Assembly: GCA_964017235.1 (NCBI GenBank) | Contig: OZ024927.1 | Span: forward strand, 48,985,293 to 49,049,292 | Direction of reading: 5' to 3' | Source of the DNA: Sabellastarte sp. h YS-2021 | Taxonomy: Eukaryota; Annelida; Polychaeta; Sabellida; Sabellidae | Length of the DNA: 64,000 nucleotides | Shown: one piece after another, positions 15,112-58,458 of the stretch | Position numbering within the stretch: position 1 is the stretch's first letter | Layout: every line of letters starts with the position of its first letter | The notes under the pieces: model-generated | Database searches by the model: none | What the model was told of the DNA's origin: nothing | What the model saw: only the letters and a program-made list of their open reading frames with translations | Program-made: the position numbers and the translations under genes

Positions 15112-15490
15112 TTGCAAATTTAATAAGTAAATTAAATTTTTATAAGTTAATACCCTATCCAATGGACAATAGCTTATCCGGTCGGCGCAGACCGGCCCGC
15201 CAAACGTCAGAAAAAGACGTCCTGTGTTTCCACCGGCCAGGCCGGCCCAGTCCTGTGCACTCGCCAGGTGGCGTGTAGTACTTCCTTCCTGTCTAGACAG
15301 CGTGACGTCATAGCATCTTTTTCGTTGTCTAAACCTATTGGACCCCTAGTAAGCTGATAGCGGGGTCGGAGGGAGGGTCTTGTGTGTCCATTGGATAGGG
15401 TATTAACTTATAAAAATTTAATTTACTTATTAAATTTGCAATTTTATTGTGTTAATACATCCTATCCAATGGACAATAGCTGAATAACTA
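15112..15490 (-). repeat. DIRS 3' terminal repeat plus internal complementary region
   Basis: The first ~62 bp (TTGCAAATTTAATAAGTAAA...) reappear inverted at about 15388-15444, making a long hairpin whose loop is the inverted terminal repeat. Directly beyond, 15445-15490 restates in complement the right end of the element (TTTTATTG..GTTAATACATCC). The relic at 7717 and the element at 45627 have exactly the same layout with different sequence. Confidence 0.9.
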
Positions 15491-15782
15491 CCGCTTGGTC
15501 GGCGGGTAAGTTACTAGGGATTAAAGTTGAACTTATGTCCGAGATTATAAACATCTCTACTTCAGCCTGGGTGGACCTTGAAGTCAAAAGGCACCCTTAA
15601 GGCTATGGTCGAATATCATCATCCGGTTGTCCGGAATGGAACCGAGGTAGGGGAAGAGAGGGATGAGTTCAATCCCATAAAATAACACCTCCTGGAGGAA
15701 GTACGTGAGAGATTTTTTTTTTTTTTTTTTTTTTGTTTGTTCTTAACTAAATCTGCTATATATACAAATATACAGATCTCCT
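15491..15782 (-). other. DIRS non-coding 3' segment with poly(T) tract
   Basis: Lies between the recombinase stop codon and the internal complementary region. It contains a run of about 22 T at 15713-15734 (A-run on the coding strand) and no open frame. Confidence 0.6.
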
Positions 15783-18700
15783 CTAGGTACCAGTCTGTTG
15801 GTGGATCTGCTGAGCAGCCACAACCGGTCCAAGATGGTAGAGCTCTGAATCAGCCCAGGCCACATCCTTCAGGTAGAATTGGGTGAAGGTATTATGAGAT
15901 TTCCAGTGGCAGGCTGCTAAGATCTGTTCTAAGGAAACTCCCGATTGGAAAGCCTTAGAAGCCGCAAAGGCCCTGACATCATGAGCTTTAACTTGATGTA
16001 GGGTGTGGGCCTGATGATCAGAGAGCTCATAGCATAGGATCACAGTTTGCTTGATCCATGAGGAGATAGTGGCAGGGGAGATGTCTTTGTCGAAACCTTT
16101 CTTGAAGGAGACAAAGACTAACTCCTTGTGTTGCCTGAGGTCTGAAGTCCGGTCCAAGTAGTAGCGCAGTGCTCTGATTGGACAGAGGGATCTGTCAGAC
16201 TTGAGGGATTTATCTAGAGTAGGAGCCAGGGCTGGTATGACCACTGGGGCTACACTCTGTGGACCCTCCTTGGCCAGCTGATTCTTAGAGAGAAAGCTGG
16301 GGGATGGAAAAAGAGACACCTTAGACCAGTCCGACTGGTGTCTGATGTTTTTATGCTGCCATGCGTGGATTTCACTCCGTCTTTTGCCAGAGCCCAGGGC
16401 CAAAAGGAAGACAGCCTTGAAGGTCACATGCTTCAGAGACGCCTCCCTAAGTGGTTCGAAGGGAGCCTTTGTCAGCTGGTGTAGTACCAGGGAAAGGTTC
16501 CAGGAGGGTATCCCCCTCCGCCCTTTGGGTCTGTCTCTGTGGAAACTTTCCAAGAGACGAGTGAGGTTATCATTTTTGCTGATATTGATAGATGTGTCAC
16601 CCAGTTTATCGGCAATGGCAGATCTGTATCCATCAATGGTGCTGGGCTGTAATTTCTTGTCCTCAAAGAGGTACATTAGGAAGTCAGCTACTGACTTTAC
16701 AGGTGGTGACCTGAAGTCCACCTGATTAGTGTCGCACCACTTTGTAAAAATGGTCCACTTTGCCTCATAGACTGATCTGGTTGACTTTCTTTGAGGAGCC
16801 TCAATTCTTGCTGCCACTGCCTCAGAGAAGCCCTGTTCTTTGATTTTTGTGGCTCTAGGAGCCAGGCATGGAGATTTAGATTTGTCAGATTTCTGTGAGG
16901 GATCTGACTGAAGGGCTGTGTTAGCAGACTGGGCAGGTTGGGTAGGCTGAGAGGGACCTGGCTGGACATGTTCACTAGGTCCCAAAACCAAGGCATGTTG
17001 GGCCACCCCGGGGCAATCAGAATGAGTCTGTTGCACGGGGAGTCCAGTAGCTTCTCCACCACTTTGCCCAATATGGCGGTCGGTGGGAAGGCGTATGCAT
17101 CCAGATCGTCCCATGGCAGGGTGAGAGCATCCACTGCTATAGCCAGGGAGTCCGGTACCGGAGAGACAAACTGAGGTAACTTGTGGTTGAACCTCGTGGC
17201 AAATAGGTCTATTTGAGGCCGGTGCCATTGATTGCATAGTTGTTAGAAAACTTCCGGAAGGAGGGACCATTCTGTTTGGATTGTCTGACCCAGCCTGGAT
17301 AGCTTGTCGGCTATCACATTTAAATGGCCTGGGATGTGTCGGGCTTTTAGAGTCACTTGTCTCTGGGAGCACCAGGTCAAGATTCTCCATAGTAGGGCAC
17401 ACAGTGGGCCCGACCTCATGCCTCCTTCCTTGTTTATATAAGCTACCACTGTAGTGTTGTCGGTTGCCACCAGAACCATTTTGTCTACACAAAGGTTTTG
17501 AAACTCTTTGAGGGCCAGGAAGACCGCTTTGAGTTCTAGATAATTTATGTGCAGTTTGCTTTCTGGCACCGACCAGGTCCCTCTTGCAGTGAACTCGTTT
17601 AAGTGAGCGCCCCACCCTTCTTTTGATGCGTCTGTAAATATCTGCAGAGCATGTCTTACTGGGTGTAGTGGTTGGCCTTGAAGCACATTGTCTTCCTCTA
17701 ACCACCATTGTAAGTGGGGGTGCAGGGACCTTGGTAGGGGGATAATCTTCTCTAGAGATTCTGGTACCCTCCAATTGTTCTTGAGATGCCACTGTATGGG
17801 TCTCATGTGTAGTCGGCCGAGGTGAACCTGTTTTTCTGTGGCTGTTAGTAGGCCTATCAGGGACATGAACTGTCGGGCCGGACAGGCCGGTAACGACAGG
17901 AGTAGATGTATCTTGTCCTGAAGGCTTTGCCACCGGTCCGGTGTAGGTCTGACCCGACCGGACCTGAGGTCGAACTGGTAACCTACAAAGTCGAAGATCT
18001 GTTTGGGTTCCAGCTCTGATTTCTCCAAATTCACCAGCCAACCTAGGTCCTGGCACATTTTGATCAGGACTTGGGTATGGTGGAGACAAGTTTTGCGGGA
18101 TTTGGATCTCACCAACCAGTCGTCTAGGTACTGGTGGATTCTTATACCCTTGTGTGTGGCCATCAGTTTCACCTCCTTTGCGACCACAGTAAACTCCAAG
18201 GGGGCTGTGGACAGGCCGAACGGCAGGGCCTTGAACTGGTATGTTAGCCCTTGGACGTGAAATCTCAAATATTTCCTGGATTGTTCCTGTATTGGAATAT
18301 GGAAATAGGCGTCCTGAAAGTCTATGGATGTGACCCATTCCCCTTGTTGGAGTGATGACCTGATGGTTTCCGGTGTCTCCATCTTGAATTTCTCCACCTT
18401 GAGGAAGAGATTTAGTTTGCTCAGGTCTAGGATAGGTCTCCACCTGTTGTTTGGTTTCGGAACTAGAAATAGCCGGTTGAAAAACCCTAGGGACTTTTGA
18501 TTTTGAACTAGTTCCACTGCATTTTTGTCGATAAGTTGATGTAATGCCTCCATCAGGTAGCTGTCCCTGTGAGGATTGACATAGCAACTTACGACTGTGG
18601 GATATCTTGTGAGCCTGGGTCGAATCCGGAAGGGGAGGGGGTAGCCCTCTTTCAAAATATGAGTAACCTTCGGACCGGCCCCTAGCTCCAGCCAAACTTT

Positions 18701-19001
18701 CCAAAAGTGTTGGAATCGAGCCCCTACAGGATAAGTTGTGACAACATTTCTGACATTTGTTACAGGTTGGACATAAGACAATTGAGTGACACAAGAAACA
18801 CCTTTCACATATTTTACTGTATGATTCTTTTGAAAAGGATGACAACCTGCTACCCCGGGACTTATTTCTTTCTTTTGCGAAAGCCCGGGGGCAGTATGAG
18901 CATGGTTCACAACATTTAATTTTACAAAAGTGTCTTTGTATTGTCTGTGATCTGTAACTGGGCTCCCGGCCAGCAGTCCTTCCTGTGATTTGAGAACACA
19001 T
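15783..19001 (-). CDS. DIRS tyrosine recombinase ORF (C-terminal catalytic domain; long overlap with pol)
   Basis: The frame of 1072 codons is open throughout. Its last ~340 residues are a tyrosine recombinase: an N-terminal SAM-like core-binding part (RSVYEAKWTIFTKWC.., LQPSTIDGYRSAI), then catalytic Arg in GKRRSEIHAW (R874), HDVR (H1007, R1010), HW (1032-1033) and nucleophile Tyr in FTQFYL (Y1043). All R-H-R-H/W-Y positions are present. It would integrate a circular DNA intermediate. Residues 1-~580 overlap the RT/RNase H frame; residues 30-92 form a cysteine-rich cluster (about nine Cys, CERCFLC..CPTCNKCQKC). The start at 19001 is only a convenience, since the recombinase proper may start near 16850 or be made from an internal or fused message. 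The frame is the same as gag, two codons after the gag stop. Confidence 0.9.
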   Translation of the reverse strand: MCSQITGRTAGREPSYRSQTIQRHFCKIKCCEPCSYCPRAFAKERNKSRGSRLSSFSKESYSKICERCFLCHSIVLCPTCNKCQKCCHNLSCRGSIPTLLESLAGARGRSEGYSYFERGLPPPLPDSTQAHKISHSRKLLCQSSQGQLPDGGITSTYRQKCSGTSSKSKVPRVFQPAISSSETKQQVETYPRPEQTKSLPQGGEIQDGDTGNHQVITPTRGMGHIHRLSGRLFPYSNTGTIQEIFEISRPRANIPVQGPAVRPVHSPLGVYCGRKGGETDGHTQGYKNPPVPRRLVGEIQIPQNLSPPYPSPDQNVPGPRLAGEFGEIRAGTQTDLRLCRLPVRPQVRSGQTYTGPVAKPSGQDTSTPVVTGLSGPTVHVPDRPTNSHRKTGSPRPTTHETHTVASQEQLEGTRISREDYPPTKVPAPPLTMVVRGRQCASRPTTTPSKTCSADIYRRIKRRVGRSLKRVHCKRDLVGARKQTAHKLSRTQSGLPGPQRVSKPLCRQNGSGGNRQHYSGSLYKQGRRHEVGPTVCPTMENLDLVLPETSDSKSPTHPRPFKCDSRQAIQAGSDNPNRMVPPSGSFLTTMQSMAPASNRPICHEVQPQVTSVCLSGTGLPGYSSGCSHPAMGRSGCIRLPTDRHIGQSGGEATGLPVQQTHSDCPGVAQHALVLGPSEHVQPGPSQPTQPAQSANTALQSDPSQKSDKSKSPCLAPRATKIKEQGFSEAVAARIEAPQRKSTRSVYEAKWTIFTKWCDTNQVDFRSPPVKSVADFLMYLFEDKKLQPSTIDGYRSAIADKLGDTSINISKNDNLTRLLESFHRDRPKGRRGIPSWNLSLVLHQLTKAPFEPLREASLKHVTFKAVFLLALGSGKRRSEIHAWQHKNIRHQSDWSKVSLFPSPSFLSKNQLAKEGPQSVAPVVIPALAPTLDKSLKSDRSLCPIRALRYYLDRTSDLRQHKELVFVSFKKGFDKDISPATISSWIKQTVILCYELSDHQAHTLHQVKAHDVRAFAASKAFQSGVSLEQILAACHWKSHNTFTQFYLKDVAWADSELYHLGPVVAAQQIHQQTGT

Positions 19002-19207
19002 TGATTGTCATTTATAGGACTGCTGGCCCTTGGCTGGTCGCGAGGAGTAGTAAGATGATTTGCCCCTGCCTCTCTTGCTTTGTCCTCTGTATCCCACATT
19101 TTTCCAAGCTGGACGATCCGGCTTTTTATTGTCTGGTCGCTTTTCAGGTCGCTCATATGGGTGGAAGCGAGCTTTTTTCCCGGTGTGAATCTGTCCTTTC
19201 GATTCAA
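16697..19207 (-). pseudogene. DIRS pol: reverse transcriptase-RNase H, with one in-frame stop
   Basis: Residues ~160-400 (numbered from the ATG at 19207) are the RT: VGARFQHFW, PILDLSKLN, TSIDFQDAYFHIPI, LPFGLSTAP and the catalytic YLDD at 360-363. Residues ~520-640 are RNase H with FTDASKEGWGAHL (D526), YLELKAV (E558), ATDNTTVVAYINKEGG (D583) and HIPGHLNVIADKLSR (D634). The frame meets TAA at 17243-17245 but stays open in the same frame to 16699. That tail contains DLFATRF, LPWDDLDAYAFPP and LILIAPGWPNMPWFWDLV, which is usual downstream of RNase H in these elements and occupies the position of the methyltransferase-like domain of DIRS1; no DPPW-type motif is seen. The first ~125 codons overlap gag and are probably not translated in this frame. 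Labelled broken because of the stop. Confidence 0.9.
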
Positions 19208-21128
19208 AGGCGGCTATGTCCTGCTCTGCCTGCTTTAAGGCTTCTTCTGGGAAAAGTGTAGACATGTTAAGCGGACCTGTACGGAGAGCAGCCAAGGTGT
19301 CCGGCTTAATACCAGGTTTGAGGTGAGATAGGTATGCATCCCTCCTGGTGAGTGTGGAGTTGGCCACTGTAATGAAGACAAAATCAGTAAGATGTTCAAA
19401 GGTCCTGGCCATAGCTTGGGTGATACCCGAGTTAAAATCCAGGAGGAACTGCAATTCCTCAGCAGCACCAGAGACCTTGGATGAAGATTTTCCCTTACTA
19501 AGATCCAACTTAATGGCTTTTAACTGTGATCTCATATTGTCCTGCACTTTGTTCAGACACCTATTGAATGCTGCGGCCTGATTGCACATGGTGGATGCTT
19601 CGCGGGCTGCCTTCTCCCAGCGTCGTAGATTGTCCTGAGAGATCTGACGCGAAGGGGGAGGGGTGGAGGCAATACCTGCTGCTCTGGCAATCCTGCTGTA
19701 GGTGCTGTTCACTTTGGCTGAGTCGGTATACCAAGAAGACAGTGACTTGCCAGAAGCGGACTTTTGTGGGTCAGATGCCAAACCGTACCATTTCTGCTGT
19801 GATCTGGCTGGTCGTATAAATTGGTCTTTCAGTAAACCACCCGCCTCTGAGCTGCGAGACGGGTAGCCTTCTACCAAGGTCAAGTTAAGTTTACCCATTT
19901 TTTTGCACAGCCACTCATCCGTAGGCATTTTGACCAACACCTTCCCTGTGGGTTGAGTCCTTGGGCCAGCAAAGGGGTTGTCGTCCGATGTAGATGTTGT
20001 GGTATCAATATCCGGAATGTCTGTCCACCCCATGTAGGACCTGATCCCCCTCATAGTCTCCCTGTAATTCTGATCCTCTGAGAGGGTCTGGTCGGGATCA
20101 GTCACAGTGTCATCCGGGTCGTTGTCGGACACCTCCCCTTCGTCTACGAAGATATCCACTGGGGGTCGGTCGGAAAACTCAGATTCGGAATCAGTGTCCA
20201 TGGAAGCTGAGTCATGTTTGCCGGCCGGTGCTGAGGACGATTTACTGGAGGCCTGAAGAAAAGGTGAGCCGGTCCCAGGTACATCTGACAGTTGGTCGGT
20301 GTTTGTTTTGTCCTGAGGCAATTTGCTGGTCGATTGGACCTTGGAGCCAATCTGAGAGACACCCTGCAAATCTGAAGATTTCTTGACAGTAGATGAAAGC
20401 GATTTGTCCGTTGCCTGTCTCTGAGGAGAGTGGTCGGTGCTGGACAAATCTGAGGTTGGTAGTTTTTCAGCCGGTCGGATGAAAGGTTCTGAGGATTTAA
20501 CTACACCAACTGGTGGGGTGTGCGTCGGTGTGATCTTAACCGGAGCAAAGGTCGGTTCTTGATTATCCAAGGTTTTTGCAATGAGGAGAGCTTCTAGTCT
20601 ATTAAACCTCTCCGACCATTTAAGGTCTAACTTGTCAATCCGGGAATCTGCTGCGGATTTGTGAGCTTGAGGTGGCGATTTAGAAGGCTTTCCTTCAGCA
20701 GTCTTGTGTTTAGCGGAAGATTTCTTTTCCTGGGATTCTGTTTTCTTCTTTTTCTTTTCAGAACTCAAACCCGGGGATTTGACTACCCCTTGGGCGTCCA
20801 CAGCTCCCACTACCGTCACTGAGGACGGGTCGATGAGAGAGGAACTAGCTGAGTCTTTGTTTGGTGTATCAGAAGATTTCTTAAGCTCTCGCTTTTCCTT
20901 TTTAATCCTATAACTAGGAGTGGACAACTGTAAGCGTTGGTCCTCTGTGAGGGAGTTGCAAGCAGGGCAGTCATTATGTGAAATACAAGGATCTAAGCCT
21001 TTACTTTTTTCTCTACATCTAGCGCAGAAACTATGGCTGTCGAAACTGGCCATAATGTGACCACAGCTCCCGTGTTTCTGGCTAGGAGAAGACATAATGT
21101 ACTGAAAAGATGTGAAAATAAGATACAA
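19008..21128 (-). CDS. DIRS gag-like protein
   Basis: An open frame of 706 codons. A more natural start is the ATG at 21095 (MSSPSQK). Near the N-terminus is a putative zinc-binding cluster: C22, H24, H32, C35, C38, C48, C54, C57 (CGHI..FDSHSFCARC..PCISHNDCPAC). The middle is long, polar and Ser/Lys/Asp-rich. A helical region follows (about 500-640, LRRWEKAAREASTMCNQAAAFNR). The C-terminus is basic and Gly/Arg-rich (GYRGQSKRGRGKSSYYSSR), typical of a nucleic-acid-binding tail. It is the first gene of the element and presumably forms the ribonucleoprotein particle. It ends with TGA at 19008-19010, followed two codons later by an in-frame ATG. Confidence 0.85.
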   Translation of the reverse strand: MYLIFTSFQYIMSSPSQKHGSCGHIMASFDSHSFCARCREKSKGLDPCISHNDCPACNSLTEDQRLQLSTPSYRIKKEKRELKKSSDTPNKDSASSSLIDPSSVTVVGAVDAQGVVKSPGLSSEKKKKKTESQEKKSSAKHKTAEGKPSKSPPQAHKSAADSRIDKLDLKWSERFNRLEALLIAKTLDNQEPTFAPVKITPTHTPPVGVVKSSEPFIRPAEKLPTSDLSSTDHSPQRQATDKSLSSTVKKSSDLQGVSQIGSKVQSTSKLPQDKTNTDQLSDVPGTGSPFLQASSKSSSAPAGKHDSASMDTDSESEFSDRPPVDIFVDEGEVSDNDPDDTVTDPDQTLSEDQNYRETMRGIRSYMGWTDIPDIDTTTSTSDDNPFAGPRTQPTGKVLVKMPTDEWLCKKMGKLNLTLVEGYPSRSSEAGGLLKDQFIRPARSQQKWYGLASDPQKSASGKSLSSWYTDSAKVNSTYSRIARAAGIASTPPPSRQISQDNLRRWEKAAREASTMCNQAAAFNRCLNKVQDNMRSQLKAIKLDLSKGKSSSKVSGAAEELQFLLDFNSGITQAMARTFEHLTDFVFITVANSTLTRRDAYLSHLKPGIKPDTLAALRTGPLNMSTLFPEEALKQAEQDIAAFESKGQIHTGKKARFHPYERPEKRPDNKKPDRPAWKNVGYRGQSKRGRGKSSYYSSRPAKGQQSYK

Positions 21129-21214
21129 ACGTTCTATGACACTCCCACAACAATGTTATATAACTTCCGAAACACTTCTTGAAGATAACTTGACAAATTC
21201 CAAAATATAAATTC

Positions 21215-21442
21215 ACTCTCAAATTTTCGTGTACACAGGGCACGCGCCAAACGAAAAAAGATGCTATGACGTCACGCTGTCTAGACAGGAAGGAAGTACT
21301 ACACGCCACCTGGCGAGTGCACAGGACTGGGCCGGCCTGGCCGGTGGAAACACAGGACGTCTTTTTCTGACGTTTGGCGGGCCGGTCTGCGCCGACCGGA
21401 TAAGCTATTGTCCATTGGATAGGATGTATTAACGCAATAAAA
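21215..21442 (-). repeat. DIRS 5' inverted terminal repeat
   Basis: Reads on the plus strand from AACGAAAAAAGATGCTATGACG to GTCCATTGGATAGGATGTATTAACGCAATAAAA and is the inverse of 15148-15334. It should contain the element's promoter; no TATA box was identified with confidence. Confidence 0.9.
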
Positions 21443-22768
21443 TGCAATACTTAAGAAGCTAATAGGGGGGTTGACCTAAATTTAAGGCTTTCAGATTGGA
21501 AGGTGTCAGAAAATCACTCGTAAATGAGACATTTTTCAAGGGATTGCTCCCAAAATCTAATCAGCTCACGTTTTCAATAGTATGAACAGGTGTGTCAAAT
21601 TATAAGGCTGTGTAGCATGTAGTTTTTCCTGAACTGCGATGATGGGGGGGGTGTACTTCAAAAAAATTGTTTTGATCATGTGACCTTCATAAAGGTCAAA
21701 GGTCAAATTTAAGCATGCAGAAAAATTTTCCCACATCTAAGTTATGTAACTGCCAAATATGGTTTGAAACCTTCTAATAATAAGGGAAATATTCAAGGGA
21801 GACCATAATGCGGCAGCGGCGGTGGCGGCGAGGAAACTGAGGCGAAAACAAATAAGCGCCCATTCAGGGACGCTTAATTATTACACTTCCAGCAAGTTTA
21901 GATAAGAGGTACCACTGTATTGCTACCACAAATAGGATCTTCTGTTTCCTAAAAAGTCATTCACATTTCTAGCATCACTTCAGTAATTTGTGTCACCACC
22001 TCTGCTCACTTGTGTTCATTCTTTCCACAGGAAACAAGTTTCTTAAATTTTTTTTATTTCTATAGAATGACATGCTGCCACTTTTAAGTGTGTTAAATCT
22101 CTAAATTTACTAAGCTATGAAAGTTTATTATTTAGATAAGGACCGCAGATACTAGAGTAAATTTTTATAGCACAAATGAATTCTAATCAACATTTTTGTT
22201 GTGTGGCCAAACTTTGATGAAGTTTATGTTCATTGTTAACCACCCATTTGATATGTAGACTGCTTGTACTATTCCTCCATAAATAATATACTACAACTTC
22301 AAGTGATATGCAAGTAGGTATACAGACCTGCAGTATGAGACTGTTTCAACCCCATTATGACCAGGTGGATTGCTTTACTTTGTGATCAGGTTAATCTGTC
22401 ACTCTCCATAAGGGTGAAAAATGTGTCTTCATTTTAAATAGACACATCAATATCTGACATCAGAATCTTACTAATTTCATCTGAGAATTTAAGATCAATA
22501 AGGTTACTTCAGATTTTCTAAATGGATGAACTCAAAAAATAGTGTAAATGTGGCACATAAAGAATCAGTACATTGTCACATCGACATGAAAGGGTAAAAG
22601 GAATGAAAATTTGTAAGGCACTCTTAACATGCGATTTTAAATCAACCATCCACAGCAGAACCTTTAATACTTAAAGCTGGTAAACCAAACCACTGAATGA
22701 ACTTTCATCAAAGTAGAACTGAATGGAAACTAAAATAAAAACAATACAAGCATTCTGACGCATGCATT
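21443..22768. other. Repeat remnant with receptor-like half-sites, then AT-rich spacer
   Basis: TGACCTTCATAAAGGTCAAAGGTCA at 21681-21705 combines an everted and a DR1-type direct repeat of AGGTCA. GGCAGCGGCGGTGGCGGCG at about 21812 and an imperfect hairpin (AAGCGCCC..GGGACGCTT, about 21854-21875) mark the end of a dispersed repeat. From 21890 to 22768 nothing was recognised. Confidence 0.5.
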
Positions 22769-22869
22769 TATCTCCCGCCGTATAAATTAGACGTCCTAAA
22801 GATAGTGGAATATAAATTTTCCTGCGAGATGGAGGCACATGTAGAAGTGACAAGTTTAATGTTTGATTG

Positions 22870-23890
22870 CAATACTTTTAAAGACAAAAGGCATTTACTC
22901 ATTTTAGTAGCTATTACTTTGCCATCCAAAGAGCTACAGTTCTGCCACTTCATTATGCAGATCAACTCAGAGTAGGGAAGCACGTCTTTAGAAGAAATAG
23001 CCTATCTGTACTACTTTTAGAGATACAAGACATTTACTTATTTTAGTGGCTATTACTCTGCCATCTAAAGAGCTACAGTTCTGCAACTTCACTATGTGGT
23101 AGATCACCCAAAAGTAGGTGAATGACTTATTTAGAAGAAATTGCCCACCTGTAATACTTTTAGAGACTAGACCAAGGATGCATCTGTGGCCAGATGCAAA
23201 ATGTATCCACCGGCAAAGGCAAAAGTAGCTATTACTCAGCTATGGCACGAGCTAGAGGTCTGAAATTTTAGTATGTTATAGCTGACCCAAAAGTAGGTGA
23301 ATAACATATTTGCACAAAATTCTCTAAATGCAATAGTTTTCAAGTTACAAGTGATTTTACTCATGATGGAAGTTAGTGAAAAGCCCAAAAGTAGCTATTA
23401 CTCACTTAGCTATTCAGATAGACACCCAAGTTACTCACCATGTTGTTGCTATGGAAAAAGTAGGTGAATGACATATTTTAACAAAATGCTCTAAATGTAA
23501 TACTTTTCAAGTTATAAATGATTTAGTGTTGAGTAAGAACTTCAAAGTAGCTATTACTCCGCTATGCAATGAGCCACAGGTCTGGAATTTTACTATGTTA
23601 TAGCTGCCTCAAAATAGGTGAATAACATACTGAAACTAAATAATGTAAATGCAAAAGTTTTCAAGTTATAAGTGATTTACCCAACAGTGATAACCTAAAA
23701 GTAGTTATTATTCAGCTATGCCATGAGCTACAGGTCTGAAATTTTACTATGTTATAGCTGACCCAAAAGTAGCTGCATAACATATTTGCACAAAGTGCTC
23801 TAAATGCAGTACTTTTCAAGTTATAATTGATTTAGTGCATGATTTAATTAATTTTAATGTATTAAAATTTATTTTAAAAATTCATAAAAA
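22870..23890 (+). repeat. Diverged satellite monomers of the 133/155-bp superfamily
   Basis: About six or seven units built on AAGTAGGTGAATAACATATT..CTAAATGCAATAGTTTTCAAGTTA..AGTAGCTATTACTCAGCTATG. They are more divergent than the arrays that follow and resemble the 155-bp monomers at 39640-44800. Confidence 0.8.
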
Positions 23891-26800
23891 AACTTAAGCA
23901 TGTGAAACTTCTCCAAAATGTAGGTGAATGAGTTATTTGAGAAATACTGGCTATCTGCAATACTTTTAGTGATAATAGGCATTTACTTATTTTGAGTAGG
24001 TGAGTAATTAGCTACAGGTCTGAAACTTCACCAAGTGAAAGCTGTCCCAAAAGTAGGTGAATGACTTATTTGAGAAAAATTGGCTATCTGCAATACTTTT
24101 AGAGATAATTAGCATTTACTCATTTTGAGTAGGTGAGTAATTACCTACAGGTCTGGAACTTCACCATGTGAAGGCTATCCGCAATACTTCTAGGGATAAT
24201 TAGCATTTACTCATTTTGAGTAGGTGAATAATTAGCTACGGGTCTGAAACTTCACCAAGTGATGGCTCTCCCAATAGTAGATGAATGAGTTATTTGAGAA
24301 AAATTGGCTATCTGCAATACTTTTAGAGATAATTAGCATTTACTCATTTTGAGCAGGTGAGTAATTAGCTATGGGGCTGAAACTTCACCATGTGAAAGCT
24401 CTCCCAAAAGTAGGTGAATGAGTTATTTGAGAAAAATTGGCTATCTGCAATACTTTTAGAGATAATTAGCATTTACTCATTTTGAGCAGGTGAGTAATTA
24501 GCTATGGGTCTGAAACTTCACCAAGTGAAAGCTCTCCTAAAAGTAGGTGAATGAGTTATTTGACAAAAAATGGCTATCTGCAATCCTTTTAGAGATAATT
24601 AGCATTTACTCATTTTGAGTAGGTGAGTAATTAGCTACAGGTCTGAAACTTCACCAAGTGAAAGCTCTCCCAAAAGTAGGTGAATGAGTTATATGAGAAA
24701 AATTGGCTATCCGCAACACTTTTAGAGATAATTAGCATTTACTCATTTTGAGTAGGTGAGTAATTACCTACGGGTCTGGAACTTCACCATGTGAAGGCTA
24801 TCCGCAATACTTCTAGGGATAATTAGCATTTACTCATTTTGAGTAGGTGAATAATTAGCTACGGGTCTGAAACTTCACCAAGTGATGGCTCTCCCAATAG
24901 TAGATGAATGAGTTATTTGAGAAAAATTGGCTATCTGCAATACTTTTAGAGATAATTAGCATTTACTCATTTTGAGCAGGTGAGTAATTAGCTATGGGGC
25001 TGAAACTTCACCATGTGAAAGCTCTCCCAAAAGTAGGTGAATGAGTTATTTGAGAAAAATTGGCTATCTGCAATACTTTTAGAGATAATTAGCATTTACT
25101 CATTTTGAGCAGGTGAGTAATTAGCTATGGGTCTGAAACTTCACCAAGTGAAAGCTCTCCTAAAAGTAGGTGAATGAGTTATTTGACAAAAAATGGCTAT
25201 CTGCAATCCTTTTAGAGATAATTAGCATTTACTCATTTTGAGTAGGTGAGTAATTAGCTACAGGTCTGAAACTTCACCAAGTGAAAGCTCTCCCAAAAGT
25301 AGGTGAATGAGTTATATGAGAAAAATTGGCTATCCGCAATAATTTTAGAGATAATTAGCATTTACTCATTTTGAGTAGGTGAACAATTAGCTACGGGTCT
25401 GAAACTTCACCAAGTGAAAGTTCTCCCAATAGTAGGTGAATGAGTTATTTGAGAAAAATTGGCTATCTACAATACTTTTAGAGATAATTAGCATTTACTC
25501 ATTTTGAGTAGGTGAGTAATTAGCTATGGGTCTGAAATTTCACCATGTGAAAGCTCTCCCAAAAGTAGGTGAATGAGTTATCTGAGAAAATTGGCTATCT
25601 GCAATACTTTTAGAGATAATTCGTATTTACTCATTTTGAGTAGGTGAGTAATTAGCTACGGATCTGAAACTTGACCATGTGAAAGCTCTTCCAAAAGTAT
25701 GTGAAGGAGTTATTTGAGAAAAATTGGCTACCTGCAATACTTTTAGAGATAATTAGCATTTACTCATTTTCAGCAGGTGAATAATTAGCTACAGGTCTGA
25801 AACTTTACCAAGTGAAAGCTCTCCCAAAAGTAGATGAACGAGTTATTTGAGAAAAGTTGTCTATCTGCAATAATTTTAGAGATAATTAGCATTTACTCAT
25901 TTTGAGTAGGTGAGTAATTAGCTACGGATCTGAAACTTCACCATGTGAAAGCTCTTCCAAAAGTACCTGAAGGAGTTATTTGAGAAAAATTGGCTACCTG
26001 CAATACTTTTAGAGATAATTAGCATTTACTCATTTTCAGCAGGTGAATAATTAGCTACGGGTCTGAAACTTCACCAAGTGAAAGCTCTTTCAAAAGTAGG
26101 TGAATGAGTTATTCGAGAAAAATTGGCTATCTGCAATACTTTTAGAGATAATTAGCATTTACTCATTTTGAGTAGGTGAATAATTAGCTACAGGTCTGAA
26201 ACTTCACCAAGTGAAAGCTCTCTCAAAAGTAGGTGAATGAGTTATTTGAGAAAAATTGGCTATCTGCAATACTTTTAGAGATGATTCGCATTTACTCATT
26301 TTGAGCAGGTGAGTAATTAGCTACGGGTGTGAAACTTCACCAAGTGAAAGCTCTTCCAAAAGTAGGTGAATGAGTTATTTGAGAAAAATTGACTATCTGC
26401 AATACTTTTACAGATAATTTGCATTTACTCATTTTGAGTAGGTGAATAATTAGCTACAGGTCTGAAACTTCACCAAGTGAAAGCTCTCTCAAAAGTAGGT
26501 GAATGAGTTATTTGAGAAAAATTGGCTATCTGCAATACTTTTAGAGATAATTCGCATTTACTCATTTTGAGTAGGTGAGTAATTAGCTATGGGTCTGAAA
26601 CTTCACCATGTGAAAGCTCTTCCAAAAGTACCTGAAGGAGTTATTTGAGAAAAATTGGTTACCTGCAATACTTTTAGAGATAATTAGCATTTACTCATTT
26701 TCAGCAGGTGAATAATTGGCTACGGGTCTGAAACTTCACGAAGTGAAAGTTCTTTCAAAAGTAGGTGAATGAGTTATTTGAGAAAAATTGGCTATCTGCA

Positions 26801-27545
26801 ATACTTTTAGAGATAATTAGCATTTACTCATTTTGAGTAGGTGAATAATTAGCTACAGGTCTGAAACTTCACCAAGTGAAAGCTCTCTCAAAAGTAGGTG
26901 AATGAGTTATTTGAGAAAAATTGGCTATCTGCAATACTTTTAGAGATGATTCGCATTTACTCATTTTGAGCAGGTGAGTAATTAGCTACGGGTGTGAAAC
27001 TTCACCAAGTGAAAGCTCTTCCAAAAGTAGGTGAATGAGTTATTTGAGAAAAATTGGCTATCTGCAATACTTTTACAGATAATTTGCATTTACTCATTTT
27101 GAGTAGGTGAATAATTAGCTACAGGTCTGAAACTTCACCAAGTGAAAGCTCTCTCAAAAGTAGGTGAATGAGTTATTTGAGAAAAATTGGCTATCTGCAA
27201 TACTTTTAGAGATAATTCGCATTTACTCATTTTGAGTAGGTGAGTAATTAGCTACGGGTCTGAAACTTGACCAAGTGAAAGCTCTCCCAAAAGTAGGTGA
27301 ATGAGTTATTTGAGAAAAATTGGCTATCTGCAATACTTTTAGAGATAATTAGCATTTACTCATTTTGAGTAATTAGCTACGGGTCTGAAACTTGACCATG
27401 TGAAAGCTCTTCCAAAAGTAGGTGAATGAGTTGAGAAAAATTGGCTATCTGCAATACTTTTAGAGATAATTCGCATTTACTCATTTTGAGTAGGTGAGTA
27501 ATTAGCTAAGGGTCTGAAACTTCACCAAGTGAAAGCTCTCAATTA
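23890..27545 (+). repeat. 133-bp satellite array with five-monomer higher-order repeats
   Basis: About 27 monomers share TGAGTTATTTGAGAAAAATTGGCTATCTGCAATACTTTTAGAGATAATTAGCATTTACTCATTTTGAGTAGGTGAG (quoted only as landmarks; key parts are GGCTATCTGCAATACTTTT and TACTCATTTTGAGTA). Private variants recur at a fixed distance. ATGATTCGCA occurs at 26281 and 26946 (665 bp). GTCTGGAACTTCACC occurs at 24151 and 24774 (623 bp, equal to five monomers less a 42-bp deletion that is also shared). The array therefore grew by copying blocks of five monomers. Confidence 0.93.
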
Positions 27546-29640
27546 GCTACAAATGAGAAAATAGCTATTACTCACTTATGGCATGCAATAGAACCCCAAA
27601 CTATGTACCATCTTATAGCTAAGGACAAAGTAGCTGAACAACATATTTTAGGCAAACACTCTAACTGCAATAGTTTTGGAGTTACAATGGCTTTACTCAA
27701 CCGTCGGAATTTGAAAGTAGCTATTACTCAGCTATCAAAGGTTCAACAGGTCTGAAACTTTACTATGTGATAGCTTACCAAAAAGTAGATGGACAACATA
27801 TTTGAAAAGATTTCCCTAACTTTAATACTTTTGAAGATATTTGACATTTACTTCTTTTGTTATTTAGCTACAAATGAGAAAATAGCTATTACTCACTTAT
27901 GGCACGCAATAGAACCCCAAACTATGTACCATCTTATAGCTAAGGACAAAGTAGCTGAACAACATATTTTAGGAAAACACTCTAACTGCAATAGTTTTGG
28001 AGATACAATGGCTTTACTCAACAGTCGGAATTTGAAAGTAGCTATGACTCAGCTATCAAAGGTTCAACAGGTCTGAAACTTTACTATGTAATAGCTTACC
28101 AAAAAGTAGATGGACAACATATTTGAAAAGATTTCCCTAACTTTAATACTTTTGAAGATATTTGACATTTACTTCTTTTGTTATTTAGCTACAAATGAGA
28201 AAATAGCTATTACTCACTTATGGCATGCAATAGAACCCCAAACTATGTACCATCTTATAGCTAAGGACAAAGTAGCTGAACAACATATTTTAGGAAAACA
28301 CTGTAACTGCAATAGTTTTAGAGATACAATGGCTTTACTCAACAGTCGGAATTTGAAAGTAGCTATTACTCGGCTATCCAAGGTGCAACAGGTCTGAAAC
28401 TTTACTATGTGATAGCTTACCAAAAAGTAGATGAACAACATATTTGAAAAGATTTCTGTAACTCTAATACTTTTGAAGATATTTGACATTTACTCCTTTT
28501 GTTATTTAGCTACAAATGAGAAAATAGCTATTACTCACTTATGGCATGCAATGGGACCCCAAACTATGTACCATCTTATAGCTAAGGACAAAGTAGCTGA
28601 ACAACATATTTTAGGAAAACACTGTAACTGCAATAGTTTTGGAGATACAATGGCTTTACTCAACAGTCGGAATTTGAAAGTAGCTATTACTCAGCTATCC
28701 ATGGTGCAACAGGTCTGAAACTTAACTATGTGATAGCTTACCCAAAAGTAGATGAATAACATATTTGAAAAGATTTCTGTAACTCTAATACTTTTGAAGA
28801 TATTTGGCATTTACTTCTTTTGTTATTTAGCTACAAATGAGAAAATAGCTATTACTCACTTATGGCATGCAATAGAACCCCAAACTATGTACCATCTTAT
28901 AGCTAAGGACAAAGTAGCTGAACAACATATTTTAGGAAAACACTGTAACTGCAATAGTTTTAGAGATACAATGGCTTTACTCAACAGTCGGAATTTGAAA
29001 GTAGCTATTACTCGGCTATCCACGGTGCAACAGGTCTGAAACTTTATTATGTGATAGCTTACCCAAAAGTAGATGAATAACATATTTGAAAAGATTTCTG
29101 TAACTGTAATACTTTTGAAGATACTTGGCATTTACTTCTTTTGTTATTTAGCTACAAATGAGAAAATAGCTATTACTCACTTATGGCATGCAATAGAACC
29201 CCAAACTATGTACCATCTTATAGCTAAGGACAAAGTAGCTGAACAACATATTTTAGGAAAACACTCTAACTGCAATAGTTTTGGAGTTACAATGGCTTTA
29301 CTCAACAGTCAGAATTTCAAAGTAGCTATTACTCAGCTATCCAAGGTGCAACAGGTCTGAAACTTTACTATGTGATAGCTTACCAAAAAGTAGATGAACA
29401 ACATATTTGAAAAGATTTCTGTAACTCTAATACTTTTGAAGATATTTGACATTTACTCCTTTTGTTATTTAGCTACAAATGAGAAAATAGCTATTACTCA
29501 CTTATGGCATGCAATGGGACCCCAAACTATGTACCATCTTATAGCTAAGGACAAAGTAGCTGAACAACATATTTGAAGAAAAAGTTGTAACTGCAATAGT
29601 TTTTGATTATGAGCCCTTTACTCCAAGTAGCTAAGATAGC
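27546..29640 (+). repeat. 321-bp tandem repeat, six and a half near-identical copies
   Basis: Copies are spaced exactly 321 bp apart (start landmarks near 27789, 28110, 28431, 28752, 29073 and 29394). Each unit is a dimer of two diverged ~160-bp sub-units: one has GAACAACATATTTTAGGAAAAC..CAATAGTTTTGGAGATAC, the other GAACAACATATTTGAAAAGAT..AATACTTTTGAAGATATTTG. Both belong to the same superfamily as the 133- and 155-bp monomers. The period is a multiple of three, so every copy shows the same 95-codon open frame; I regard that as incidental. Confidence 0.95.
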
Positions 29641-29749
29641 TATTACTCAGTTATCTTTAGGCCATAAAACCAAAAAAATTTTCGAGGGCGTGAAAATTCA
29701 TTGGGACAATTAATTTACAAAAAATCTGTAGCTGTAGTAGTTTTGGAGG

Positions 29750-29850
29750 AATCTGCGTGACTAACTAACGCACGCACGCACACACGCACGCACGCACGCA
29801 CAGGCATCATTTCATAATCTCCCTCCCGGGCTAAAGCCCGGCGGGAGATA
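29750..29850 (+). repeat. (ACGC)n microsatellite and terminal hairpin of element 1
   Basis: An ACGC/ACAC run at about 29768-29802 is followed by ATCTCCC-T-CCCGGGC, loop TAAA and GCCCGG-C-GGGAGAT (29817-29849). The right terminal inverted repeat is thus itself one arm of a hairpin. Element 2 and the relic at 4259-4292 have the same order. Confidence 0.85.
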
Positions 29851-30975
29851 ATAAGGTGCAGCAGTCACTCAGCAAAATATAAGCAATTTGCTCTAGTTCA
29901 AATTAGTTTGTACAGAATCTTACATGTTTTTCGCTAATTTGGCTTTACAGGATTGTTACTACCACATGTGATACATTTTAGTACATAACTGACATATGAA
30001 TGTCGTAAAATATGATTTGCTTTATCTGTGTCTACAATGACTACCTTTTTCTATTCAATAACAGTAACCAGACTTGGCATTTCAACACAGAATATCCCCT
30101 AATGAGACAAATTCATCACAATACACAGAGAATTGTACAAACTGATTAATAGGGATATACAGCCTTTATGGTCAGTCAACTCCATTTGACTTTGAATCAG
30201 AACTCACAAGTTAAATCCGACCTTACAAGAAGATTCCCAGCCCATTATTTCCTATAAGTTGTTTGAGCACTCCAAACTCCTGTGACCAAGAAATAAGGGA
30301 GATATAAAGCTATTTGAAAGTCCATCCAACCTTGAAGCCTGGGTGATAGTGAAGTCTGAACCCACAAAAATTGCAGCCCATCACTTCCAGTATAAGGCTT
30401 ATAATAATAAATATAAGGCTTTTGGTATAAACACCATTTCACTTTGAAACAGAGATCAAATGGTCTTTCAGGTCAAGGTACTCAATGTCAATATATTATG
30501 GTACTCTTAAGCTACATTACAAATTTGAATGGCTTCCATTGTGTATTTCCATAACTACAAGAAAAAATATTAAAAAAATATGACTAAAAATGATTCTGGT
30601 CGGGCACTTTTGCTCTCTGACTGGCCTTTGAGCTAGGAGGTAAAAGTTTTGTGGATTTGTGGGAGAATATATTTATTATACATTAAACCCGAAAATATTT
30701 CCAGCTAGAGTACATGAGAATCAGACAAGAATGTGACAAAAACACCAAAAATTGACCTCTTTAAGGCTGATTTTGACCTTGAAATTGAATGTCAAAGTCA
30801 TCAATAAATAGGTTCAATGTCCATTTCCATGTGTACCCCATTAATAAATTTGAAAGCACTAGTTCAAATAATTTTCAATTACCATGTCTGAAAGGAAATC
30901 TCTGGCATTAGTGGGGTGACATAAGAAGCTCAAAATCAATATTTCCCCAACATTCGCCCAGGGATATAATAATAT
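29851..30975 (+). repeat. Diverged family-iii repeat ending in a degenerate hairpin
   Basis: A diverged 147-bp-type unit (GATTCCCAGCCCATTATTTCCTATAAG near 30235) and AGGTCA half-sites (TGACCTTGAAATTGAATGTC near 30775) precede TTTCCCCAACATTCGCCCAGGGATATAATA at about 30944-30974. That last segment is a decayed version of the TATATCCCCGAC..GTCTGGGGATA end seen at 32929 and 36592. Confidence 0.6.
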
Positions 30976-31669: not shown

Positions 31670-32931
31670 AAAACTAGAATGCGCCGACTCGACGCCAAAA
31701 TATCCCCAGACAGGCCATCTCTCACACCACAAGCATTCACTGGGTATTTTTTGCAGCACCCATTTTCTGTGATTCACAATTATTATAAACTATTTTTTTT
31801 TTGGTCAAACCATTTTTTTTTCATTTTTTTTTGGGGGGGGGGGGGTTAATTTTTTTAAAAAGTCCTCTGAGTGGATGATTCATGGGTCTCACATATAAAT
31901 GTCTACTTAAAGCCTTGGTTTTTGACACATGAAAAAAACAACAACATATGAATATATTCCCAGATGAGCTTTCAGCTGTATCAGGCGCATATTATGACAG
32001 TTATAGGGCTTAAAATTGGTAAAAAGTCAATAAATTGGGGGTCTGTGGGCATTTATGAGACCTTAAGGTGACCTTAAAATTAAAGTTACAGACTTTAAAT
32101 TTGGACAAGACAAACCTTTCATTTAGAAGTTATCTACTACAGTTAGAGACTTGTCCGACTTAACATTTTCAGGTTACAGGACCAAATATGTTGAAAATGT
32201 GGTAAAAGAGTCACTCGGGTGGGTGTTTATGGTCCTCATACACAGGTTAAACATCTATTTAAAGCCTTGATTTTTCTCACACGTAAACAGAACATAATCA
32301 TACATTCCCAGATGAGATTTCAGCTGTATCAGTCACATCGTTTGACAGCTTTAGGCCTTCAAAGTGGCAAAAAGTCCATAAATTGGGTCTCTGTGGGCAA
32401 TTTAGAGACTTTAAGGTGACCTTAAAATTAAAGTTACAGACTTAAAATTTTTCACAGACTTAGATAACATTTAGTAGTTATATCTACTACAGTTACAGAC
32501 ACTTTTGAGTTATTGGGGAAAATATGGGAAAAATGTCGAAAAAAACATGTAAGTATGGTCTTTATGGGCCTCAAAAACAATTTTAACCTTAACATAAAGT
32601 CTTGATTTTTGGTAAATGTAAGGATAATATAGTAATGTGTTCCCAGGTAAAATTTGATCCAGATAAGCCACATAGTCTGTGACCTAGAGGGCTTTATGTG
32701 GAAAAAAGTCAAATTTCTGACTTTAAGGTGGCCATAAGTTCTTTATTATTGGGAGTTTAAGGTCACCTTAAAATAAGGTTCCTCTCCTGACCCAAATAAA
32801 TGTGTGTGCCAAGTTTGAAGGAAATCCGTTAAAGCATTTTTGAGTTATCGCACACAAAAGTCAAAACGTATGGCGGCAGCGGGGCGACAGACGTGAAACC
32901 AATATATCCCCGACTTTCGTCTGGGGATAAA
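31670..32931 (+). mobile_element. Family-iii hairpin-ended element, copy 1
   Basis: TATCCCCAGAC at 31701-31711 is a perfect 11-bp inverse of GTCTGGGGATA at 32919-32929. Homology with copy 2 extends ~30 bp further left (ACTAGA-TG-GCC-AC-CG-CGCC), so this motif is subterminal on the left. The right end is the hairpin TATATCCCCGAC-TTTC-GTCTGGGGATA (32903-32929), preceded by GGCGGCAGCGGGGCGACAGACG. The interior holds two to three units of the ~350-bp repeat described for copy 2. There is no coding capacity. A G/T-rich low-complexity tract lies at 31797-31855. Confidence 0.7.
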
Positions 32932-33339
32932 ATAAGAAGTGAATATATAGTAATGCTGTCATACACCATCACTGATTAACATTTTTCATCGAGTAAGTTC
33001 TGATTATTTCTCTACATTTTTTTTCTCATTCAGTGTGTTACACATTTAACATTAAAAAAATTCACTTTCAGATCATTTTCGTCAGTAAAGCGACTTTTTC
33101 CACATAAGTAAACCATATACAACTATATCTCTGAAATTTCCTTTATGCAAATCTTTAATGTTCACTGTTAACGTGACTTAAAGCTCTTCACACTGTAAAA
33201 CAGGCAAAATTTATGTACACACACAAAAATAATTACACTGATACAGTCAGCTTATGGATTTATTTTGAACACACTTCATCCGCTGATTGCTTGTGTGACT
33301 CAAAATTGCAGTATATAATAATATTAAAGATAATATAAA
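32932..33339. other. AT-rich spacer, nothing recognised
   Basis: No coding or repeat signal was seen between the two family-iii elements. Confidence 0.4.
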
Positions 33340-33572
33340 AATAACTAGATTGGGCCAACCCGGCGCCAACATATCCCCAGACAGGTCATCACTCACGCCA
33401 CAGGTTTTGATCGGGAATTTTTTAAAACATAATTACCCATTATTATATGAACTTCAGCACATCAATCTACTCTGTTTATATCTCCCCAAGGAAGATGGTG
33501 TATCCCCAGACGCCGAATACATAACTCAAATTATATTTTCAATCTTCCTGCAATGATAACTCTAAACCTATT

Positions 33573-33840
33573 TTCAAAGTATTTAAATGATTGATGATTG
33601 AATGTCCATTCTAAAATAATAATCCCAAAAGAGCATATCTGTTTCTATATTTGTTGACAAATAAAATATTATTTTTAACTCAACTCATCATATTTTTCAA
33701 TCTTCCTTCAAAGTATTTAAATGATTGATGATTCAATGTCCATTCTAAAATTCATAATCCCAAAAGCGCATATCTGTTTCTATATTTGTTCACAAATAAA
33801 ATATTATTTAAAAAAAAATTATTTATATTATTATTTTATT
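33573..33840 (+). repeat. Two-copy ~135-bp tandem duplication
   Basis: TCAAAGTATTTAAATGATTGATGATT begins at 33573 and again at 33708. The copies share CCCAAAAG-GCATATCTGTTTC and ACAAATAAAATATTATTT with few differences, so the duplication is recent. Confidence 0.85.
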
Positions 33841-34449
33841 ATATTATTTTTAGAATTTGCAAATTGTTTTCAGTTATTCATTTCCTCTATACCTATATAT
33901 GTGGTCCATATATATGCAACCTAAATATGTGACACAATCTCAGTTCTGACTCCCCTTTGTGTTATATGTAATGAAGCCCACCACCTCCCACCCCTTCTCC
34001 ACACCTCTCTCACTATTACACAAGATCTGCAACCCCATTGAGTTCTTTGTTTCTCATCTGATATCATTAAATACCTTTGTTTATTTAGTGTCACTCAATA
34101 TAGCTGGAGGTCCCAGAGGTGGGTGGGGGGAATCCGGGTGGGGGATGTGGGTTGAGCATAAATGGTAAACAAACAATCTATATAAAAGGGGTACTCAAAT
34201 ACAAAAAGAATTGAGAATTTTAAGTATGTGATTATCAACTGAAATGAGTTCATAACTGTAGGAGCTGTGCCAAAATTAACTGAGGCAAGTTGAATAAAAC
34301 TGGGCTAGTTGAGGGTTACAAATCCCCTAGTTTTACTACATAAGGATATAATTTCATTAATATTGGGACTTCAAGCTCACTTAAAGTGTCCATTTTGTCT
34401 ACTTGAATATGTTTAACCAGTTTCATTTTAAAAAGTGAAAAACTCAGCA

Positions 34450-36500
34450 AGCAGAGGTATAACACACAAAAATAAGTTCTTAAAAGACTAAGATAGCCAT
34501 AACATTATTAATATTCAAAATTTAAGTAGACAGGCATTTCCTTTTAAAAATTCAAAGATTTCAGCTCTATAACCCACATAGTTTGACAGTTACTGGGCTT
34601 TAAAATGGCATAATATCCATAAATTGGGTTTCTGTGGGCATTTTACAATTGTTAAAGAGACCTTAGCAATTAAACTACAGATCTGAAACTTTTTGGGGGA
34701 CATACATAACAAACAAAAATTATATATAATACAGTTTAAGACTTGTCACACTAAGCATTTCCAAATAACAGGGCAAAATATGGAAAAAATGTCAAAAAAG
34801 GCACTTGGGCGAGTGTCTATGGCCCTCATACACAGGTTAAATGTCTACTAAAAACCTTGATTTTCGGCATATGTAAAAAGGACATAATAATGCATTCCCA
34901 GATGGGATTTCAGCTCCATCAATCACATAGTTTAACAGTTACAGGGCTTAAAGGTGGTAAAAAGTCCAAATATTGGGTCATTGTGGGCCTTTTAGAGATC
35001 TCGATGTGGCTTTCAAATTAAAGCTTCAGACTTAAAATTTGTTACATACTAAGATTACACATAGAATATGTATCTAATAAAGTTTGAAACTTCTCAGACT
35101 TACCATTTCCAAGTTACAGAGCAAAATATGTGAAAAATGTCTTAAAAGGGTCACTCAGGTGGGTGTTTAAGGTCCTCATACACAGGTTAAATGTCTACTT
35201 GAAGCCTTGATTTTTGGCACATGTAAAAAGAACATAATAATGTATTCCCAGATGAGATTTCAGCTCTATCAGTCACATAGTTTAACAGTCACAGGCCTTA
35301 AAATTGGCAAAAAGTCCAAATACTGGGTCTTTATGGGGCCTTCTAGAGACCTAAATGTAGCCTTCAAATTAAAGCTTCAGACTTAAAATTTGTCACATAC
35401 TAAGATTACACATAGAATATGCATCTAACACAGTTTGAAACTTCTTAGACTTACCATTTCCAAGTTACAGGGAAAAATATGTGAAAAATGTCTAAAAATG
35501 GTCACTCGGGTGGGGATTTATGGTCCTCATACACAGGTTAAATGTCTTCTTAAAGCCTTAATTTTTGGCACATATAAAAATAACATACTAATATCTTCTC
35601 AGATAGGATTTGAGCTCTATCAGTCACATAGTTTGACAGTCACAGGGCTTAAAAGTAGCAAAAAGTCCAAATATTGGGTCTTTGGGAGCCTTTTAGAGAC
35701 CTCAATTTGACCTTCAAAATTAAAGCTTCAGACTTAAAATCTGTTACATACTAAGATTACACACAGAATATATATCTAATACAGTTTGAAACTTCTCAGA
35801 CTTACCATTTCCAAGTTACAGGGAAAAAGATGTGAAAAATGTCTTATAAGGGTCACTCGGGTGGGTGTTTATGGCCCTGATACACAGGTTAACTGTCTAT
35901 TAAAGGCCTAAATGTTGGGGCACATATAAGAAAACACATAGATATATTCCCAGATGATATTTAACTTAGATGAGAGACATAGTTTGAAAGCTACAGTGCT
36001 TGAAAGTGGCAAAAAGTGCATAAATTGGGTCTCTGTGGGCACTTTTGAGACCTTAAGTCGACCCCTTTGGGTAAACCTACAGCCCTAAAATTTTCTACAG
36101 ACAAGGATTACATATCAAAGTTATACCTAGCGCAGTTTGAGACTCATCAGAATTATCACTTCCAAATTATAGGGCAAAATATGTGTAAAGTATAGCAAAA
36201 AATCCCTAAGTGGGGGTATTTATGGGCCTCAAACACAATTTTCTCCTCAACTTAAAGTCATGATTTTCGGCACATGTACTAAGAACATATTAATGTGTTG
36301 TCAGGTAAAATTTCAGCCAGCTGAGCATCATAGTTTGTGACCTACAGGGCTCTAAGTGGCCAAAAGTGCAATTTCTGACCTTAAGGTGGCCATAAGTTCT
36401 TTTTTACTGGGAGTTTAAGGTCACCTTAAAATAGGGATCTTCCTTTGGGCACCCTTAACATGTGTACCAAGTTTGAAAAAAAAATATTAATTTGTTTTTG
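34450..36500 (+). repeat. ~351-bp tandem array, about five to six units
   Basis: CCTCATACACAGGTTAA-TGTCTA recurs at about 34823, 35173, 35524, 35876 and (diverged) 36231. Each unit contains TTTGGCACATGTAAAAAGAACATAATAATG, TTTCAGCTCTATCAGTCACATAGTTT and CAAAATATGTGAAAAATGTC. Two or three further units are in copy 1 (31870-32900). Confidence 0.9.
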
Positions 36501-36603
36501 AGTTATCGCGTCCACAAGGAAATTTCTACGGCGGCGGCGGCGGCGCGACGGACCTGAATCCAATATATCCCCGACTTTCGTCTGGGGATATAATTACATG
36601 ACA

Positions 36604-39340: not shown

Positions 39341-39639
39341 CAAAGAAACACCAGTGGCGGCCATCTTGTTTTTTAAAATGAGCCCAAAAATACTCCAAGT
39401 CAAGATTTTATAATGAGGAACACATCCTGCGAATATGAGATCTCTACTTATAATACCCTTTGCTCTAGAGGGCCAACAAAAGTCCTTGTTTAAAGTCGAA
39501 TAAACGTCCCTAGCGGCCATCTTGTTTTTAAAAATGAGGCCAAAAATATTCCCAGGCAACATTTTATGGTTATTAATATATTCTGCAAACTTAAGAAGGC
39601 TAGCTATAATATTTTTTTCATTAGAGCGGTAATGGTGAA

Positions 39640-42190: not shown

Positions 42191-42252
42191 AAAGTAGCTA
42201 TTACTCACTTAGCTATTGAAACAGACACCCAAGTTACTCACCATGTTGTAGC

Positions 42253-58440: not shown

Positions 58441-58458
58441 TTCAGAGAAAACTGCGTG

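Follow-up and report, generated by a model that had tools for sequence, protein, structure and literature searches.

The satellite-rich block at positions 22768-29851 of the window (the whole 64-kb stretch of DNA that was analysed) is probably, at roughly 80%, a non-autonomous Helentron of the HINE / DINE-1 / Pearl type on the minus strand. A second copy with a shared end motif, array order, microsatellite and end hairpin lies at 51896-58542 of the same window; the blocks are called copy A and copy B below. Near-end inverted repeats, a 5' complementary repeat, a microsatellite and central arrays, which are features of HINEs, are present in both copies.

The sequence TTATCTCCCGCCG occurs in the window at 22768-22780 on the plus strand and at 29839-29851 on the minus strand, perfect at both sites, as the earlier note had said of the 13-bp inverse pair that closes the block. 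In a first-order Markov simulation, 0.13 GC-rich (at least 8 of 13 positions) perfect 13-bp inverted pairs spaced 0.5-10 kb apart are expected per 64 kb and at least one was present in 7 of 60 simulated windows; on its own, the pair of copy A is only mildly unlikely. It is secured by the second copy: TATCTCCCGCCG, with up to one mismatch, occurs at exactly four sites in the 64 kb (22769, 29839, 51896 and 58530), which are the correctly paired ends of copies A and B, and four sites were reached in 0 of 100 shuffles. With up to two mismatches to the 13-mer there are five sites, the fifth being the other hairpin arm of copy B. Because all four sites are the ends of two blocks, a transposed unit is the most likely explanation of these blocks, rather than chance pairing. 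The inverted pair is perfect over 13 bp in copy A and has one mismatch over 12 bp in copy B. Tandem arrays (TRF, microsatellite included) make up 86.5% of 22768-29851, which bears out the earlier description of the block as mostly tandem arrays, and 86.7% of copy B. The parts of copy A are as follows.

22734-22767, minus strand: probable 3' tail with a weak stem-loop, beyond the 3' subTIR (A/B alignments; left limit approximate)
22768-22780, minus strand: 3' subterminal inverted repeat (subTIR), CGGCGGGAGATAA on the minus strand (motif search)
22781-23220, minus strand: left part, largely degenerate monomers that do not align with the left part of copy B
23221-23834, minus strand: 155-type satellite units (BLAST; TRF 23457-23837, period 154)
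23835-23892, minus strand: AT-rich link from the 155-type to the 133-type arrays, common to copy B and a block at 44.9 kb
23893-27540, minus strand: 133-bp satellite array with 25 full-length units and 3 partial ones (TRF, monomer table)
27543-29603, minus strand: 321-bp array (dimeric, about 160-bp), 6.4 copies (TRF)
29604-29767, minus strand: 5' module, common to copy B (alignment)
29768-29801, minus strand: (GTGC)n microsatellite, (ACGC)n on the plus strand (TRF)
29815-29851, minus strand: 5' subTIR with nested complementary repeat, hairpin TTATCTCCCGCC...GGGAGATTA (DNA fold)

The corresponding parts of copy B are these.

51865-51894, minus strand: probable 3' tail (anchored A/B alignment; limit approximate)
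51896-51907, minus strand: 3' subTIR, 12 bp identical to copy A
51939-52580, minus strand: 137-151-bp array, not seen in copy A (TRF)
52581-52836, minus strand: 155-type units and AT-rich link (alignment to copy A)
52837-56851, minus strand: 133-bp array, interrupted by a MITE at 56243-56418
56852-58308, minus strand: 166-type array with pieces of 137-type (TRF, BLAST)
58309-58461, minus strand: 5' module (alignment to copy A)
58462-58496, minus strand: (GTGC)n microsatellite (TRF)
58510-58542, minus strand: 5' subTIR hairpin (DNA fold)

Read from left to right, both copies consist of an inverted repeat, a copy-specific left part, 155-type units, the AT-rich link, the 133-bp array, a 160/166-type array, a module of about 150 bp, the (ACGC)n tract and a hairpin that holds the second inverted repeat. 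Collinear homology joins 23765-24176 to 52709-53122 (91.5%) and 29066-29855 to 57746-58546 (74%). At the left end the copies share little beyond the repeat: the 200 nt inside it do not align either (score 6.5, near the null median of 3), and the left part of copy A has internal similarity (22873-23023 and 23012-23166, 82.6% by self-BLAST). The MITE within the 133-bp array of copy B, with inverted ends identical at 23 of 23 aligned positions and TA on both sides, is one that we take, from its inverted repeat, to be Tigger-like.

The two ends of the block differ. The right end folds into a hairpin in copy A (-13.9 kcal/mol, z -4.74, 0 of 200 shuffles as good) and in copy B (-9.7 kcal/mol, z -2.63, 3 of 200 shuffles as good), in agreement with the earlier observation that this end is a hairpin arm beside an (ACGC)n tract. 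Since the nested hairpin and (GTGC)n are found at one end only, a HINE is favoured over a TA-flanked MITE. An element of the latter kind, a cut-and-paste MITE with 10-bp terminal inverted repeats TCTCCCGCC(G) and a TA target duplication that acquired satellite arrays, is unlikely; it would fit the TA that adjoins the 10-bp repeats TCTCCCGCC(G) / GGCGGGAGA at all four ends of both copies, and it is also served by unanchored comparisons, in which homology past the left repeat is not firm. However, as both copies have this TA, it may be no more than a part of the element; the earlier note was correct about its presence on both sides, but its role as a target site is indistinguishable from that of element sequence. 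A further argument against the MITE is that anchored similarity between A and B appears to pass the left repeat and not the right one, as in HINEs, and the inverted repeats, previously described as terminal, would then include a left one that is subterminal.

The extent of the element beyond the left repeat was estimated by comparing A and B outward of each subTIR. With the comparison anchored at the 3' subTIR, 174, 32, 9, 6 and 9 of 3000 random pairs were as good at 20, 24, 30, 40 and 50 nt, the similarity at 20 nt being weak; outward of the 5' subTIR the numbers were 1537, 1864, 630, 1289 and 226 of 3000. On the 3' side at 24, 30, 40 and 48 nt, 38, 17, 15 and 27 of 3000 dinucleotide shuffles and 51, 7, 16 and 20 of 3000 T-matched pairs were as good. 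When local alignment beyond the 3' subTIR was left unanchored, a score as good came from 5 of 400 random pairs, but also from 103 of 2000 pairs of T-rich sequence and from 209 of 2000 shuffles. The stem-loops predicted on the 3' side are weak, since folds as good were given by 31 and 27 of 200 shuffles and by 12% and 14% of 800 stretches of the window. Thus the left repeat is probably subterminal, with A/B similarity that seems to run 30-40 nt beyond it, a suggestive result from two copies whose outcome depends on the test. In mite HINEs the 5' subTIR is 2-4 nt from the end and the 3' subTIR about 38-60 bp from the end (PMC4067079), a spacing matched by A/B similarity beyond the 3' but not the 5' subTIR.

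Between A and B the subTIRs are identical at 12 of 12 positions at the 3' end and 11 of 12 at the 5' end, so that under the rule of at least 11 identical subTIR positions (PMC4067079) the copies belong to one HINE family. They would be assigned to different subfamilies, for which the dividing line is at least 80% identity over the 3' terminal 60 bp: the 3' terminal stretch is identical at 43 of 64 columns over 61 nt including the subTIR, with the true 3' end not fixed.

The flanks bear on a different explanation, in which a satellite domain was duplicated or rearranged segmentally without transposition and the end motif is merely part of the duplicated unit. The two copies are in the same orientation and 29 kb apart (start to start), and a third block at 38.5-45 kb holds a tandem duplication of roughly 3.7 kb with related satellites, as such a history might produce. 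On the right side, however, BLAST homology stops at 29855/58546, at most 4 nt from the right subTIRs; the 200 nt outside either end are non-homologous (scores 3 and 4, null median 3); and the outer flanks of A and B are joined by no BLAST row among the matches listed (267 self-BLAST rows were kept and those of at least 40 nt listed, leaving out rows with both sides in listed arrays). Homology that stops at the right repeats, together with unlike 200-nt flanks, favours insertion of a unit over segmental duplication, which is very improbable given also that the blocks end at inverted repeats. The proposal of the earlier note that the satellites are cargo of a mobile element thus gains from a second copy in which the ends and the order of arrays recur and the flanks lack homology over 200 nt.

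A canonical Helitron has 5' TC, 3' CTRR with a hairpin, insertion between A and T, and no inverted repeats at its two ends. The 5' hairpin end does have TC after an A, but inverted repeats are present at both ends and past the 3' stem-loop there is no CTRR, the sequence there being CTTGT in both copies; a canonical Helitron is therefore the remotest of the explanations considered, with hardly any probability.

Copy A contains no open frame longer than 95 aa, its longest stop-to-stop frames being the periodic 95-aa frames of the 321-bp array. Of 71 ORFs of at least 85 aa in the window, 14 that lie outside copy A were scanned and none matched a Helitron Rep or helicase family; the only matches were to a DIRS-type retroelement and, below cut-off, to one family of unknown function. 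One ORF of the window had no match among PDB sequences. The retroelement, which we take to be DIRS-like, is at 15109-21462 on the minus strand, with a reverse transcriptase match (PF00078), an RVT_3 match, a tyrosine-recombinase match below cut-off (PF00589) and inverted ends that are 98% identical (15146-15326/21250-21433). Another structure at 45137-51375 has inverted ends of 185 bp (45650-45831/51018-51202, 96%), outside which lie direct repeats of 173 bp (45137-45309/51203-51375, 97%), and six ORFs scanned within it had no Pfam match. At 38514-44950 each unit of a tandem duplication of about 3.7 kb opens with the palindrome AGTGCCCGnGAACGGGCACT, after which come a 147-bp-type and a 155-bp array; this is possibly another carrier with palindromic ends. 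A repeat family with units of about 351 bp, dispersed and tandem, is located at 31896-36594.

The satellites of copy A had been read as several classes. When one unit from each of nine arrays was compared, with the best of 200 letter shuffles as the cut, 19 of 21 pairs among seven units (155, 133, 160, 166 and left-part type) were above the best shuffle, the two below it being 133 versus 160b and 160b versus the left monomer. On this comparison of units, the first block carries one diverged satellite family in size variants (133-, 155- and 160-bp units), and copy B adds one unrelated family of 137 bp. None of 15 pairs that included the 147-bp unit (from the 38.9-kb array) or the copy B 137-bp unit was above the best shuffle, and the 137-bp consensus is within shuffle range of the main family. 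The family with units of about 147 bp, TTTGACCTTGAAGGAGGGG..., is unrelated to the main family where compared and is spread over the window (11558-12550, 30207-30307, 38832-39293 and 42539-43112). In copy B the junction AGTAGGCCAAAGTTCACCAAAC recurs at 56852, 57363 and 58348, and the first of these is followed by 137-type sequence (56876-56966) within a stretch of about 459 bp that is repeated from 57362; the recurrent junction suggests that one satellite was captured into another. Since related 155-bp arrays are present outside these ends, at 39.7-44.9 kb (77 to 93% identity with the copy A 155-type units among the BLAST rows listed), not all of the satellites are cargo of this element.

Between the two copies, identity is higher in the central modules than at the ends. 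The 155-type edge (194 of 206 positions), the link (93.8% over the 64 nt of 23829-23892) and the first 133-bp units are about 90-94% identical between A and B, the 5' modules about 80% (116 of 145 positions between the copy A module and 58309-58461, or 76.6% of 145 with free end gaps) and the 3' ends about 67%. The link and first 133-type units are identical at 287 of 317 positions and the 5' module and hairpin at 153 of 191, a figure that depends on gap settings; the difference is significant by Fisher's test (p = 0.001) with sites treated as independent and one pair of copies. Pieces of the copy A 321-bp unit match copy B at only 72-82%; among the 321-bp units themselves, identity of the other full units to a reference unit is 94.7-97.2%. 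Both the 155-type module and the link recur at 39.7-45.4 kb, a third context without these ends, where the link is 90.5% identical to that of copy B over 63 nt.

The history of the 133-bp arrays was examined with 52 units (56 full-length matches less 4 that belong to other unit types). The mean identity among the units of A is 0.930, as it is among those of B; between the copies it is 0.923. Same-copy nearest neighbours number 45.4, against a mean of 25.3 and a maximum of 37.3 in shuffles, an excess such as private duplications would give: the array of copy A has internal duplications at spacings of 623 bp (identical units) and 665 bp, and copy B has 665-bp-spaced duplications of its own. After near-identical units were collapsed, leaving 40, identity is 0.925 within and 0.919 between copies, and same-copy neighbours number 27.4, against a mean of 19.5 and a maximum of 28.8 in 300 shuffles. 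Within- and between-copy identities that are nearly equal after collapsing imply that most of the unit diversity is older than the split of A and B, with some same-copy likeness remaining. An independent origin of the two arrays is not supported, identity between the copies being almost equal to identity within them. The mosaic could have arisen by exchange of central arrays between carriers or by homogenisation of arrays 29 kb apart. That the cargo was swapped between carrier ends, as a semi-independent passenger that moves or is homogenised between Helentron carriers instead of being copied together with a single one, is a tentative suggestion that is on balance doubtful.

Motif scans for two satellite patterns outside the window gave no matches; a motif scan of genome contigs matched two prokaryote stretches; and the end-hairpin pattern in viral contigs matched one stretch, without a TRF array, which reads as a chance match. 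A text search of the literature for TATCTCCCGCC or GGCGGGAGATA returned nothing on this subject, judging by titles and the starts of abstracts.

As described in print, a HINE begins with a 5' subTIR and a nearby complementary repeat, continues with a microsatellite and central repeats, and closes with a 3' subTIR that is separated from the true 3' end by a palindrome (PMC4067079, PMC7492417), the inverted repeats near both ends being 11-15 bp long. The layout resembles that of Cg_HINE of Crassostrea gigas, in which the order is subTIR, inverted repeat, microsatellite, tandem repeats, subTIR and palindrome. As in the element described here, Cg_HINE has a 5' subTIR (11-12 bp) with a complementary inverted repeat after 1-12 bp, a short microsatellite mostly of 4-nt units, central arrays (consensus units of 138-181 bp), a 3' subTIR and satellites dispersed by the element (PMC7492417). 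The microsatellite is GTGC here and GTCY-like in several Cg_HINE, the elements being compared by description rather than sequence. Cg_HINE arrays average 3.6 monomers, the longest having 29.3, and 2 of 11 elements have two arrays (PMC7492417); unlike these, the present element has 25 full-length 133-bp units, 6.4 units of 321 bp and 155-type units, which form three related array types whose order is fixed and which include a link. The suggestion that a satellite-filled element of this size would be an extreme case is therefore only partly upheld: its size and three ordered array types are less usual, but long arrays and two-array elements are already on record in that oyster. Tandem repeats occupy about half of Culex HINE/DINE-1 examples, compared with about 86% here, and autonomous partners are known for the DINE-1/HINE elements of Drosophila, mites and Culex (PMC4067079). 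Pearl elements of bivalves also have Helentron-type ends and central repeats of about 160 bp, in numbers of up to six, and are likewise compared by description rather than sequence (PMC7492417, PMC11136912). The 155-type/link modules at 39.7-45.4 kb that lack these ends resemble the "standalone" and one-sided arrays that have been counted in oysters (PMC11136912).

In the proposed mechanism, the 5' end of the element would be at about 29851, with the 5' subTIR, the complementary repeat as a hairpin and the (GTGC)n tract, followed by the long run of satellite arrays, the 3' subTIR (22780-22768) and, as far as about 22734, a short tail that holds a weak stem-loop. The Rep-helicase would come from an autonomous Helentron at some other locus; it would nick the element and copy it by rolling-circle replication, and the copy would be inserted at a T-rich site, presumably between T and T and, as expected of a HINE, without target duplication, carrying the satellites along. 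Later changes of the arrays would take place on the spot, through unequal exchange and local duplication, and sequence may be exchanged with related arrays, possibly including those of other copies.

Oyster HINEs have been described as transporting satellites (PMC7492417, PMC8268682), and networks of satellites and transposons have been described in four molluscs (PMC5139131). The principle is thus already published; the cargo here is longer and more mixed than the published averages. The present element is a clear added case of multi-kilobase satellite arrays inside an apparent rolling-circle-type element, with two copies in one window and array duplications that are private to each copy; what is less usual is its size, the fixed order of its three array types and a mosaic in which the cargo is more alike than the ends. 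If the mosaic holds genome-wide, it would provide a direct way to ask whether a satellite stays with its carrier or moves from one carrier to another.
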